The notes under the pieces: generated by a model
What the model was told of the DNA's origin: nothing
Database searches by the model: none
Seen by the model: only the letters and a program-made list of their open reading frames with translations
Source of the DNA: Nanobdellati archaeon
GTDB taxonomy: Archaea; EX4484-52; GLR71
Direction of reading: 5' to 3'
Assembly (NCBI GenBank): GCA_019429005.1
Contig: JAHYJR010000002.1
Location: 1-64,000 of the forward strand
DNA: 64,000 nt
Position numbers and translations under genes: made by a program
Shown here: one piece after another, positions 1 to 54,097 of the stretch
How the letters are laid out: each line of letters opens with the position of its first letter
Position numbering within the stretch: position 1 is the first letter of the stretch

Positions 1-1
1 T

Positions 2-310
2 GACAATTATTCAAGGTTAAACGATTTCATAACTGCCTGGGAAGACTTTGAAAAGTTAAAGAAAGAAAAAAATTACTTAGACTTTTCAGACCTCAATTAT
101 TATACATTAAAATTATTTCGTGAATTTGGTGCAAATAAAGAACAATCTAAATACATATTCATAGACGAATTTCAAGACACAAACAAATTACAATTTGAAC
201 TGATAGAATTTATCGCAGACCAAAACATAACTGTAGTGGGCGACCCAAACCATAACATCTTCAAAAACTTGTTCGCTCAATCGCAGATGAACAAAATCAT
301 TAAGTGTTGA
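2..310 (+). pseudogene. UvrD/PcrA-type SF1 helicase fragment, cut at both ends
   Basis: The frame starting at base 2 is open from the left edge to TGA at 308-310. It encodes the middle of a superfamily 1A DNA helicase. Walker B/motif II reads IDEFQDTN, followed about 20 residues later by motif III VVGDPNHNI. The family normally continues with Q-S-IY-FRGA, but similarity stops just after NIF (about base 263-275), where a fragment of a transposase-like gene begins on the other strand. The 5' part lies outside the window. The 3' motifs IV-VI are missing, so the gene is dead. The helicase assignment rests on established SF1 motifs; disruption by a mobile element is inference. Confidence 0.8.
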
Positions 311-604
311 AACTGACGGAATCGTTTTCAATTTCAATATTTTTTGATCAAATTCTGATAAGGATCTTAATAGTTTTTCATAGCCACAATCATAAAAATA
401 ATAAGCAGTAGCCAACCTTATCATTGCACCAACACAGTGTGTTGGTGTTCGAAGATAATATTTTTTCAGAACATAATCTTCAAGCTCAGTGATATCTAAA
501 TGTGCAAGATACTCAAAGAGCGTACAACCATTTTGTGTCAATTCAGTTAATGTTTGTTTTACATAAACACCAGCTGAATACTCCACTGTTATCGCTTTTC
601 TCAT
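265..604 (-). pseudogene. N-terminal transposase-like fragment
   Basis: A minus-strand frame opens with ATG at 604 and encodes about 111 residues of coherent protein. The segment IPSVSTLNDFVHLRL resembles the linker ahead of the catalytic domain in several DDE transposases. Past about base 265 the frame is only the antisense of the helicase gene, so the catalytic part is absent. A short palindrome ATTCGAAT occurs twice just upstream, at about 612-619 and 646-653. It could belong to an element end, but no convincing terminal inverted repeat was found. The family is not identified. Confidence 0.45.
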
Positions 605-814
605 GAGCCATTCGAATTGGGAGTATATATAGTTAACTGTTGATAATTCGAATTAGGTCTTCGTTAAAAAAGAGATTACTTTAAAAGGGATTTCCTTAAC
701 TGGATAGTCTCAATATCTTTATATCTCAGAGTATATATTTATGACTATATGGTTAATATAAAAAAGATACAAACATTTTAATCAATATATAAAAGTATAA
801 ATCTAATAAAATTC

Positions 815-1288
815 ATGTTTGACAATTTAATTTCTATATTAAACATTCAAAATCCATGGTTAATTATAGGATTACTTGCAATGGCGCCAATAAGCGAATC
901 TAGAGGTGCAATAATATATGGGATTTCAAAAGGTCTTGATCCATTGAGCGTATTTATAATTTCAGTAGCCTTAAACACATTAGTAATGATTCCCATTCTA
1001 TATCTCCTAAGACAAAAACCGATAATGTTGATGATACACAAAGTAATAGGAAAACGAATAACAAATATACTTGAAAAAAATAAAGAAAAATTTGAATTAT
1101 ATGAAGAACTAACACTTTTTGGTTTTGTTGCAATACCAGCAATAGGAACAGGTGCCTGGACCGGCACATTACTTGCAACAGTTTTAGAACTTGATTTAAA
1201 AAAATCATTTTTGGTCATAACAGCAGGTATTATTGCAGCCGCATTGATTGTATTATTAAGCACAAATGGTTTTTTTTATTTTATTTAA
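815..1288 (+). CDS. Small multidrug export family membrane protein (COG2426)
   Basis: A 157-residue membrane protein with about four hydrophobic segments. Two family signatures are visible: ISESRGAIIYGI near residue 27, and IPAIGTGAWTGTLLA near residue 107 followed by a helix ending in LKKSFLVITAGIIAA. These match the Sm_multidrug_ex family (PF06695), a DedA-like set of small polytopic proteins whose transport function is annotated but poorly tested. Length fits the family. It stands alone with AT-rich flanks. Confidence 0.8.
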   Translation: MFDNLISILNIQNPWLIIGLLAMAPISESRGAIIYGISKGLDPLSVFIISVALNTLVMIPILYLLRQKPIMLMIHKVIGKRITNILEKNKEKFELYEELTLFGFVAIPAIGTGAWTGTLLATVLELDLKKSFLVITAGIIAAALIVLLSTNGFFYFI

Positions 1289-1353
1289 TGAAATAATTTG
1301 AATCCCAGTTTAAAAATTAACAAACATTTTATATATTACTTAATTTCAATCGT

Positions 1354-1447
1354 ATTATGAAACTTGTAAGTGCTTGTCTGGCTTATCCTTATAACAATAT
1401 AATACATAAGAACTTATAATTATGAAACTTGTAAGTGCTTGTCTGGC
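1354..1447 (+). repeat. 29-bp direct repeat duplicating the start of the DUF523 gene
   Basis: The 29 bases at 1354-1382 recur exactly at 1419-1447 and include the ATG and first eight codons of the downstream DUF523 gene. The copies are 65 bp apart, so the first is not in frame with the second. Translation from the first ATG (1357) gives MKLVSACLAYPYNNIIHKNL and stops at TAA 1417-1419, two bases before the real ATG at 1422. A TATA-like stretch at 1327-1337 is correctly placed for a leaderless start at 1357, and another AT box at 1391-1403 for 1422. Confidence 0.9.
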
Positions 1448-1829
1448 AGGAATCAATTGTAGATGGAATGGCAAAGCAAAACCGTGTCAAAAAGTTATTG
1501 AATTAGTTCGACAAGGTAAAGCAATTCCAGTCTGTCCTGAACAATTAGGTGGATTAACAACTCCTCGAGAAGCATCAGAACAGAGAGGAGATAAAGTCTT
1601 TACAAAAGAAGGTAAAGATTTAACTCATCCATTTGAAAAAGGTGCAGAAGAAGGATTGAAAATAGCAAAACTTGCAAATTGTAATGAAGCAATTCTAAAG
1701 GCGAACTCGCAGTCATGTGGTTCGAGCAAAGTTTTCGATGGAACTTTCTCAGGTAATTTAGCTGAAGGTGATGGAGTATTTGCAAAACTTCTCAAAAAAA
1801 ATAATATTAAAGTCGTTAGTGAAGAGTAA
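1422..1829 (+). CDS. DUF523 / TudS-type [4Fe-4S] desulfidase family protein
   Basis: 135 residues. Signatures of DUF523 (PF04463) are CLAGINCRWNG at residue 7, PVCPEQLGGL near 37 and ANSQSCGSSK near 93. The conserved cysteines in these motifs bind a [4Fe-4S] cluster in the characterised relative TudS, a thiouracil desulfidase. The fold and cluster are likely; the exact substrate here is unknown. The start is the second of two identical ATG contexts created by a 29-bp duplication, chosen because only this frame runs into the family domain. Confidence 0.85.
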   Translation: MKLVSACLAGINCRWNGKAKPCQKVIELVRQGKAIPVCPEQLGGLTTPREASEQRGDKVFTKEGKDLTHPFEKGAEEGLKIAKLANCNEAILKANSQSCGSSKVFDGTFSGNLAEGDGVFAKLLKKNNIKVVSEE

Positions 1830-1851
1830 TTTAAAACCCAAAATAAACAAC

Positions 1852-2301
1852 TTAAAAACCAAAAATAAAATAAAACGACATCCAGTTATTTGCTAGATGG
1901 CATATCAAGCTCCCTTTTAATTCATATTTATTGTACACCAGTCCAAAAACAAGACCTATAAACATCATATTAAACGCTTTTAATATACCCCAACCAGATA
2001 CCATATGCCAGAATCCAAATAATATGCTAGATACTATAAGTCCAATATTAAGTAAATTTTTTTTCTTAAACCATTCTAGTATTGTTCGGTGGAATATTAA
2101 TTCTTCAAAAATGGGAGCAACTAATCCTACATAAAGAACCTTAACATACCATGTTGATGATAACCACCAGCTTCCATTTCCTAAAGTAAGTTCTAATGTT
2201 TGCGGGAATGCGACAAACATCCATTTCAGAAAATTATAATTTATTAAGTAAAGAAGTATTCCTATAATTAAAGTATATATAAAATAATTAGACTTCTTCA
2301 T
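1852..2301 (-). CDS. CPBP-family intramembrane metalloprotease (CAAX protease-like)
   Basis: 149 residues with about four transmembrane segments. The CPBP/Abi catalytic motifs are present in order: FEELIFHR (EExxxR type), FGFWHM (FxxxH) and a late HLANN motif, all in or near membrane helices. The family includes type II CAAX prenyl endopeptidases and bacteriocin-immunity proteins; the substrate cannot be told here. It converges on the DUF523 gene with a 22-bp gap. It is short for the family but holds all catalytic motifs. Confidence 0.85.
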   Translation of the reverse strand: MKKSNYFIYTLIIGILLYLINYNFLKWMFVAFPQTLELTLGNGSWWLSSTWYVKVLYVGLVAPIFEELIFHRTILEWFKKKNLLNIGLIVSSILFGFWHMVSGWGILKAFNMMFIGLVFGLVYNKYELKGSLICHLANNWMSFYFIFGF

Positions 2302-6629: not shown

Positions 6630-6683
6630 CTATTTTTCTTATTGCAAAAATACTTTTTTATATTTCTGTAATCAAATTAAATT

Positions 6684-7100
6684 ATGATTAATAATTTGAA
6701 ATCTAATTTAAATAACCTAGCAGACCCAGACCGTGCAAAAAATCTTTTAAGATATTTTAAGACCTGACCAGGTGAGTAAGGTGAAGGGGACATATTTATT
6801 GGTATAACAGTACCAAATTTACGTAAAATCGCAAAAAAGTATAAAGACATATCGCTTGACGAAACAAAACTCTTATTGTCAAGTAAAATCCATGAACACC
6901 GTTTAATCGCTTTATTCATTCTAATCATTAAATATCGGGTTTCAGATGAACCAAATAAAAAAGATATCTTTGATATTTATCTTGATAATATGCAATATAT
7001 AAACAATTGGGATCTGATTGATTCTTCAGCCGGATACATAATCGGCGATTGTTTTAAATTATCAAAAAGTTGTTGTATCGTATTTTTCTTAGGGTTATAA
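6684..7100 (+). pseudogene. AlkD-like DNA alkylation repair enzyme with two nonsense codons, 3' truncated
   Basis: One frame from ATG 6684 carries an AlkD/DNA alkylation repair family sequence (PF08713, HEAT-like DNA glycosylase). It reads ..LRYFKT-stop-PGE-stop-GEGDIFIG, where the family has FKTGPGEYxEGD. TGA (6765-6767) thus replaces Gly and TAA (6777-6779) replaces Tyr. The frame then continues KIHEHRLIALFIL and NNWDLIDSSAGYIIGD, as in AlkD. Similarity ends near 7045, where an unrelated minus-strand fragment begins; the last third is missing. Full-length relatives are about 220-240 residues. Dead gene. Confidence 0.85.
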
Positions 7101-45801: not shown

Positions 45802-45894
45802 ATTATCAGTATATTTAATCTAGTTTATATATTTTCGTGATGTTCCCTATTTAAAACGATAATTTTATAACCCTTAAAATATATTAAATATTAT

Positions 45895-46422
45895 ATAAAA
45901 CAAAGAGCGTTAATACTAGTAGATTTTGAAAATGAATGGATTAATAAAAATTCAGATTATTTTGTTGGAGATATTTCAAAAGTTATTGAAAAGACAAATA
46001 AGCTTATTGATTTTTGTAGAAAAAACAATTATAAAATAATATTCATTGCACATATTGAAAAAGATTCAAATAATGTATTTGCAGAAAATTCTGAAAACAT
46101 AAAAATTATTAACGAAATCAAAAGACACGATACCGATGTATTAATTAAAAAATATAAAATTATTCCATTTTTTAAGACGTCTCTTGAAGAAGAACTTCAA
46201 AGTATTAATGAAATTATTGTTTGTGGGATCTTAACAAATTTATGTGTTAGAAGTCTTATTCAAGATGCATATGATAGAGATTTTGAAATAAAAGTAATTA
46301 AAGATTGTTGTGTCGCTTTTGATGACAAAACACAAGAATTTACATTTAAAGATTTAAAGGATACAAGAGAAGAAATCGAATTCATAGATTTGAATGATTA
46401 TATTGAATTCAATTTAAATTAG
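45895..46422 (+). CDS. Isochorismatase-like hydrolase with no canonical start codon
   Basis: An uninterrupted 175-codon frame with the isochorismatase/cysteine-hydrolase fold. It begins near ALILVDFENEW (catalytic Asp), continues with LIKKYKIIPFFKTSL (Lys) and reaches IIVCGILTNLCVRSL with the cis-peptide and nucleophile Cys. No ATG, GTG or TTG exists between the upstream stop (45868) and the conserved start region. The position expected to be ATG is ATA (45895-45897). Either AUA is used, perhaps on a leaderless message with TATA near 45863-45870, or the start was lost recently. Confidence 0.75.
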   Translation: MKQRALILVDFENEWINKNSDYFVGDISKVIEKTNKLIDFCRKNNYKIIFIAHIEKDSNNVFAENSENIKIINEIKRHDTDVLIKKYKIIPFFKTSLEEELQSINEIIVCGILTNLCVRSLIQDAYDRDFEIKVIKDCCVAFDDKTQEFTFKDLKDTREEIEFIDLNDYIEFNLN

Positions 46423-52764: not shown

Positions 52765-52777
52765 GGTGATATAAATT
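52765..52777 (+). promoter_or_regulatory. GGTGAT ribosome-binding site followed by AUU start of RNase J
   Basis: GGTGAT (52765-52770) matches the motif seen before many genes here, and 4 nt later comes ATT (52775-52777), directly after an in-frame TAA. The conserved RNase J N-terminus begins at this ATT, not at the ATG 45 bp downstream. Confidence 0.7.
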
Positions 52778-54097
52778 AGATTTTATGCGATAGGCGGATA
52801 TAATGAAGTCGGAAAAAATATGAGTGCTCTTGAAGTCGAAAATGAAGTAGTCATATTCGATATGGGTGTCCATATGGAAAAGTTAATTGAGCTTAATTCT
52901 GAAAAGCTCGATTATACACAGTTAAGTACTGAAAAACTTAAAGCACTTGGTGTTTTACCAAATGATACCATATTAAATGGTAAGAATGTTATTGCAATTG
53001 TAATTTCACACGGTCATCTAGATCATGTAAATGCTATACCAAAACTAGCTGAAAAATATAATTGTCCTATAATTGGAACACCATACACAATAAAGATTAT
53101 TGAAAACATTCTTAGAGATCATGGAAAAAAGAAACTTTTAGACAATCTTGTAGCTATAGAATATGGTGATTTGGCAGAAATCTCAAAAAAAATTCAAATT
53201 GAACTTGTCAGAACAACACACAGCATACCAGAACCATCTTTAATTGTAGTACACACAAAAGAAGGTATTGCAACAATTGCATATGATTATAAGCTTGATA
53301 ACACCCCTGTTTTTGGAGAAAAACCGGATTACAAAAGAATCAAAGAAATAGGAAAAGAAGGTGTAAAACTCCACCTCTCTGAATGTGTCCACGTTGCAGA
53401 TGAAACTAGAACACCATCTGAAGAAATTGCAAAACATCTTATGAAAGATTCAATTGACCGTGCATATGAAGGCAACACATCCGTTTTTGTAACAACGTTT
53501 GCATCTCATATTGCAAGATTAACTGGTATTATTGAAGCAAATCAAAATCGTAGAAAAATCGTATTTCTTGGAAGGTCCCTTGATAATTACACAAGACCTG
53601 CTAAAGAATTAAACCTTATTGATTTATCTGATATTACAATTGAAGGACGACCTAAAGGTGTAACTAAAGTTTTAAGTGATGTTGAAAAAAATCCGACACA
53701 ATATCTTGTAGTATGTACAGGTAATCAAGGTGAACCTAATTCGGTTTTATCAAGAATATCAAATAAACAATACACTTTCAATTTCAGAAAAGAAGATCAA
53801 GTAATTTTCTCTTCAACTGTAATACCAAGTCCACTCAATAGAGCTAGTAGATATACACTTGAACGTAATCTTAAATCTCAAGGCGTGAGAATCATTAAAG
53901 ATGTACATGTCTCAGGTCATGCTATGCGTGAAGATCATAGAGACCTTATACGAATGCTTAACCCAACACATATTATACCATGCCACGGTGAAACAGAACG
54001 TCTTGCAAACTTTGCAAGTCTTGCTGAAGAAGAAGGTTATGTTTTAGGTAGTACTGTGCATATATTAACAAACGGACGATATATTGATCTGAAATAA
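52775..54097 (+). CDS. Archaeal RNase J (metallo-beta-lactamase/beta-CASP ribonuclease)
   Basis: About 440 residues from the proposed AUU start. The N-terminal strand reads RFYAIGGYNEVGKNMSALEV, conserved in the family; starting at ATG 52820 would delete it. SHGHLDHVNAI is motif 2 (HxHxDH); HSIPEPSLIV, YDYKLDNTP, beta-CASP motifs (FATHIA-like FASHIARL) and VSGHAMREDHRDL with IIPCHGET complete the active site. The enzyme is a 5'-3' exonuclease (with endonuclease activity in some members) in RNA decay. A stop-overlapping hairpin follows. Confidence 0.92.
   Translation: MRFYAIGGYNEVGKNMSALEVENEVVIFDMGVHMEKLIELNSEKLDYTQLSTEKLKALGVLPNDTILNGKNVIAIVISHGHLDHVNAIPKLAEKYNCPIIGTPYTIKIIENILRDHGKKKLLDNLVAIEYGDLAEISKKIQIELVRTTHSIPEPSLIVVHTKEGIATIAYDYKLDNTPVFGEKPDYKRIKEIGKEGVKLHLSECVHVADETRTPSEEIAKHLMKDSIDRAYEGNTSVFVTTFASHIARLTGIIEANQNRRKIVFLGRSLDNYTRPAKELNLIDLSDITIEGRPKGVTKVLSDVEKNPTQYLVVCTGNQGEPNSVLSRISNKQYTFNFRKEDQVIFSSTVIPSPLNRASRYTLERNLKSQGVRIIKDVHVSGHAMREDHRDLIRMLNPTHIIPCHGETERLANFASLAEEEGYVLGSTVHILTNGRYIDLK

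Follow-up and report, generated by a model that had tools for sequence, protein, structure and literature searches.

The window analyzed here, a stretch of 64,000 nucleotides, carries a frame for ribonuclease J (RNase J) whose conserved N-terminus is encoded upstream of its earliest ATG, which raises the question of which codon starts its translation. An initial annotation had proposed an ATT that directly follows an in-frame TAA and lies 4 nt past a GGTGAT motif. Direct reading confirms this layout: GGTGAT is followed by ATAA, which contains the in-frame stop TAA, and then by ATT (Table 1).

The RNase J frame and its candidate starts

After ATT 52775, the frame reads AGA TTT TAT GCG ATA GGC GGA TAT AAT GAA GTC GGA AAA AAT before reaching ATG 52820, and it continues uninterrupted to the stop codon TAA 54095–54097. 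No ATG, GTG or TTG occurs in this frame between the TAA at 52772–52774 and 52820. The N-terminus encoded by the frame opening at ATT 52775 is IRFYAIGGYNEVGKNM, and the protein predicted from the ATT start would begin (M)RFYAIGGYNEVGK. Two nearby codons were rejected as starts, namely ATG 52785, which lies in another frame and terminates after two codons (ATG CGA TAG), and ATA 52790, from which the Shine–Dalgarno (SD) motif is 19 nt away.

Table 1 Coordinates of the RNase J start region and of a second frame lacking a canonical start before its domain
Feature	Positions	Strand	Description
GGTGAT Shine–Dalgarno	52765–52770	+	4 nt before ATT; perfectly complementary to the 16S 3′ tail of this genome
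In-frame TAA	52772–52774	+	Shuts the RNase J frame upstream of ATT
ATT, proposed RNase J initiation codon	52775–52777	+	Column is ATG in 29/29 relatives
RNase J CDS	52775–54097	+	440 codons plus stop; TIGR00649, 423 bits; MBL, beta-CASP and RMMBL domains; 5haa
ATG, earliest in RNase J frame	52820–52822	+	Rejected start; costs GGYNEVGKN; product 391.8 bits
Isochorismatase-family frame (PF00857, E 8e-32)	45871–46422	+	Intact; no ATG/GTG/TTG before domain

The assignment of the product to RNase J is consistent across models. The domain models PF00753 (MBL), PF22505 (beta-CASP) and PF07521 (RMMBL) all score over their own cut-offs and in order, and the nearest solved structure is the archaeal mpy-RNase J 5haa (E 2e-115). 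On the basis of this family membership and homology, the protein is predicted to have exo- and endoribonuclease activity. It is the single RNase J of the assembly; the one other match is a distant 632-aa frame, which we take to be aCPSF1.

These family models also bear on the choice between the two in-frame candidates. If the original start had been lost, translation could proceed from ATG 52820 and yield a protein minus its first 15 residues, perhaps inactive. This codon is in frame, and some accessory genes of the genome are decayed, but the shortened product would lack the conserved GGYNEVGKN strand, and its TIGR00649 score would therefore fall from 423 to 391.8 bits, below the curated whole-protein cut-off of 400 bits for this NCBIfam RNase J model. 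Moreover, ATG 52820 is not preceded by a good SD, the remaining 425 codons are intact, and the assembly has no other RNase J. We consider a start at 52820 very unlikely; the claim of the initial annotation that the family N-terminus lies upstream of the first ATG is borne out.

The placement of GGTGAT is the second line of evidence for the ATT start. The hexamer is perfectly complementary to the 16S rRNA 3′ tail of the same assembly (..GGATCACCTCCT; 3′ end, ..GCGGCTGGATCACCTCCT), and the aEF1A mRNA of Pyrococcus abyssi, which serves as a model for archaeal initiation, has the same geometry, GGUGAU-N4-AUG (PMC6237735). Because GGTGAT occurs 37 times in the window over both strands (128 kb of strand; 2.9e-4 per position), its position before ATT is hardly a matter of chance, and the chance of encountering it 3–6 nt before a chosen codon is ~0.001. 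The initial annotation had further described the same motif before ATG in several genes. Exact GGTGAT directly precedes an ATG start in two genes of the window (19757 −, which it had named htpX, and 21593 −); this part of the claim stands, whereas the others carry the shorter GTGAT or TGAT instead of the full hexamer.

Elsewhere in the window, an AlkD-like DNA alkylation repair gene (window 6680–7100 +) is decayed, with two close in-frame stops (KT*PGE*GEGD) and a lost C-terminus. A frame at window 188–652 − is 88% identical to that of G004, another member of the same family, and has no N-terminal start codon in either genome; an identical 20-nt stretch including a TAA precedes it in both, and conserved coding sequence extends upstream of its first ATG. 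Genes at the contig start (window 1–2000) are 80–94% identical to G004, compared with roughly 40–70% elsewhere, which may reflect recent transfer or a matter of binning.

RNase J start codons in relatives

We compared the start column with 29 relatives, which come from the same family and from its broader order of DPANN-type archaea (the match list names Aenigmatarchaeota and Nanohaloarchaea metagenome assemblies). In all 29, the ortholog starts with ATG in the precise column occupied by ATT. Over this stretch the closest relative, G020, reads GGTGATTAA ATG AGA TTT TAT where the present genome reads GGTGATATAA ATT AGA TTT TAT. Across codons 2–16, the region from ATT to 52820, the differences summed over relatives comprise 130 synonymous and 80 non-synonymous changes, so this region looks like translated sequence. 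RNase J shows these sequence marks of an AUU start: a homologous start column, SD spacing and the lack of any usable canonical start.

The AUU itself is private to the present genome, being kept in none of the 29 relatives, and this bears on the suggestion of the initial annotation that initiation fidelity might limit RNase J much as it does infC. Such a regulatory AUU, by which synthesis would be kept low or autoregulated, draws on precedent: work cited in PMC9845219 describes AUU starts as weak and as serving infC autocontrol, and in archaea aIF1 destabilizes complexes on non-AUG codons (PMC6237735). Because no relative keeps the AUU, nothing appears to conserve the weak start. The RNase J leader also showed no structure when its folding was compared with that of shuffled sequence, being weaker than the shuffles (z +1.55), and RNase J is not known to take part in choosing start codons. 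We regard infC-like regulation as highly improbable here; a change that lowers output or is close to neutral would be a simpler account.

Putative AUH starts elsewhere in the genome and family

The uniformity of ATG among relatives can also be read as a sign that the T at 52777 is wrong or unusual, either a sequence artifact or a minor strain variant, and that most living cells carry ATG. The assembly is a draft of 15 contigs and the only genome of its genus in the comparison, and viral contigs contained no independent copy of the RNase J locus. Against this reading stands the occurrence of similar starts at other genes. We screened 454 kb of the present genome (~42%) and 723 kb of G004 for genes whose conserved N-terminus offers no usable ATG, GTG or TTG, and recorded AUH codons (AUA, AUC or AUU; H = A, C or U) in the start position.

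In the present genome, neither rpoF (AGGTGAT-N4-ATT) nor aRF1 (AGGTG-N5-ATT) has a usable ATG, GTG or TTG. An MBL-fold hydrolase has AGGTGA-N5-ATA, with ATG in the same column in G005 and G020, and an AstE-like gene has GTGAT-N4-ATC and runs for 90 codons without a canonical start. The sole GTG in rpoF and in the MBL hydrolase falls inside the SD. The rpoF start column gives the clearest series, being ATT in the present genome and in G006, ATC in G002 (where GTG codons also lie in and beside the SD) and ATG in G003, G004, G005 and G008. The reverse case was also found, a G004 gene with AGGTGAT-N4-ATT where the present genome has ATG. The search of relatives for non-ATG starts returned ATG throughout for RNase J and AUH starts in other genes, as in rpoF.

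Whenever a different codon stood in place of the ATG of a relative, with no alternative start available, that codon was AUU, AUC or AUA and never ACG, AAG, AGG or CTG. Since error or decay would also yield the latter codons, the AUH-only pattern counts in favor of genuine starts. An EamA-like gene in L059 (broken frame) and a radical SAM gene in L058 (no clean ATG column) were excluded from the count. Two control genomes, G033 and G032, which belong to a sister family and have a higher GC (0.45), yielded no convincing AUH start apart from the aRF1 leader. A count of SD-anchored codons by itself gave a weak enrichment of ATH, since SD-like words often arise by chance; the case for AUH starts therefore rests on the homolog columns. 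From these columns, AUH codons seem to serve occasionally as starts in this archaeal family.

This recurrence makes a lone sequencing error at RNase J less likely. In the present genome and its relatives, AUH replaces ATG in several genes, always with an SD, and errors at such a rate would have disrupted the majority of long frames, yet these are intact. An artifact or minor variant at 52777 is accordingly unlikely in our judgment.

Two possible causes of lax start selection were examined and rejected. A loss of aIF1 is contradicted by the presence of SUI1 in the present genome and in 31/34 genomes of the order, and an odd initiator tRNA is contradicted by a CAU tRNA of normal type, whose anticodon stem has the archaeal GGG/CCC.

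Further frames share the lack of a canonical start. The isochorismatase-family frame of the window (Table 1) has ATA 45895 or ATT 45883 as candidate starts, neither with a clear SD. In G004, a methionyl-tRNA-synthetase-like gene (L073, minus strand, offset 1410) has AGGTG before ATT ATA and an N-terminus without a usable ATG, GTG or TTG, and another gene (L087, minus strand, offset 11602) has AGGTGAT-N4-ATA at its apparent N-terminus (IKVKIIKDAVHGDIE..), with nearby GTGs only in the SD and two codons past the ATA.

The aRF1 leader

A separate pattern was observed upstream of aRF1. An AGGTG-like motif followed by 4 to 7 nt and ATT-TAA or ATT-TAG is conserved in 16 genomes from four families of the order (L104–L109, L111–L113, L115, L117, L120–L122, L126 and L127). 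In all 16, the aRF1 frame is +1 relative to the ATT-stop, with seven different distances to the conserved RGR motif. ATG is absent from the aRF1 N-terminus in 11/16 genomes, and the ATT-stop frame mostly has no canonical start either. In the present genome, the ATT is in frame with aRF1 (L044:10957–12187 +) instead of forming ATT-stop. The arrangement suggests that the release factor regulates its own synthesis through a +1 frameshift where a stop codon comes directly after an AUU start. It presumably parallels the frameshift site of E. coli prfB, here positioned at or close to the start codon.

Discussion

Our analysis indicates that this gene is probably a typical archaeal RNase J, present in one copy, with a start that has changed from AUG to AUU in this lineage. 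As the initial annotation had proposed, ATT 52775 is well supported as the predicted initiation codon, because of the ATG column in 29/29 relatives, the SD geometry, the family score and the recurrence of AUH starts; the draft state of the genome, the same 29/29 relatives with ATG and the decayed accessory genes nearby are the points against it.

In the mechanism that we propose, the strong SD GGUGAU would anchor the 30S subunit and place AUU in the P site, where the normal initiator tRNA (anticodon CAU) would pair with the first two bases, AU, leaving the third mismatched. Translation in the cell would then start at AUU with methionine as residue 1. The change from AUG to AUU would be survivable because the family tolerates AUU, AUC and AUA as occasional starts. 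Given that aIF1 destabilizes complexes on non-AUG codons (PMC6237735), RNase J output is plausibly lower than it would be from AUG.

RNase J may be one case of a broader habit, to which we give an even chance. In this scenario, the family would be lenient about the third start-codon base, with AUU, AUC and AUA as regular minor starts in roughly 1% of genes (a frequency estimated from a handful of genes), a rate close to that of GUG and UUG, and with exchanges for AUG at a given column between close relatives; in the order, aRF1 seems fixed on AUU, mostly followed by a stop. Gene callers generally accept only ATG, GTG and TTG, so RNase J, rpoF and aRF1-type genes would be annotated short or missed across the lineage. 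Were AUH initiation routine in this group, start discrimination by aIF1, aIF1A and aIF2 would differ between archaeal lineages, and the rpoF column offers a natural AUG/AUU/AUC swap series for testing such discrimination.

Setting the gene beside known systems places its peculiarity in the start codon. It aligns over its full length with archaeal RNase J (mpy-RNase J, PDB 5haa/5ws2; TIGR00649), with the same MBL, beta-CASP and RMMBL domains and the common N-terminal GGYNE(V/M)G(K/R)NM; the sole difference is AUU in place of AUG. It shares with bacterial infC an AUU start behind a Shine–Dalgarno motif. The infC product, however, is a fidelity factor (IF3) that controls its own AUU start, whereas the product here belongs to a ribonuclease family that is not known to act on initiation. 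An infC-type regulated start would be expected to stay AUU among relatives, but all 29 relatives here have ATG, which weakens the notion that RNase J autoregulates through its AUU. Among close prokaryote genomes in 36 groups, 1 of 61,358 AUG starts changed to AUU versus 476 changes to GUG or UUG, counts that are based on annotation, which disfavors AUU-type starts (Belinky et al. 2017, PMC5622118). The same study found that non-AUG starts tend toward stronger SD motifs. As in those switches, AUG has been swapped here for another codon in the same column; unlike in them, AUH looks, on small counts, about as common as GUG and UUG among the SD-led genes of this family.
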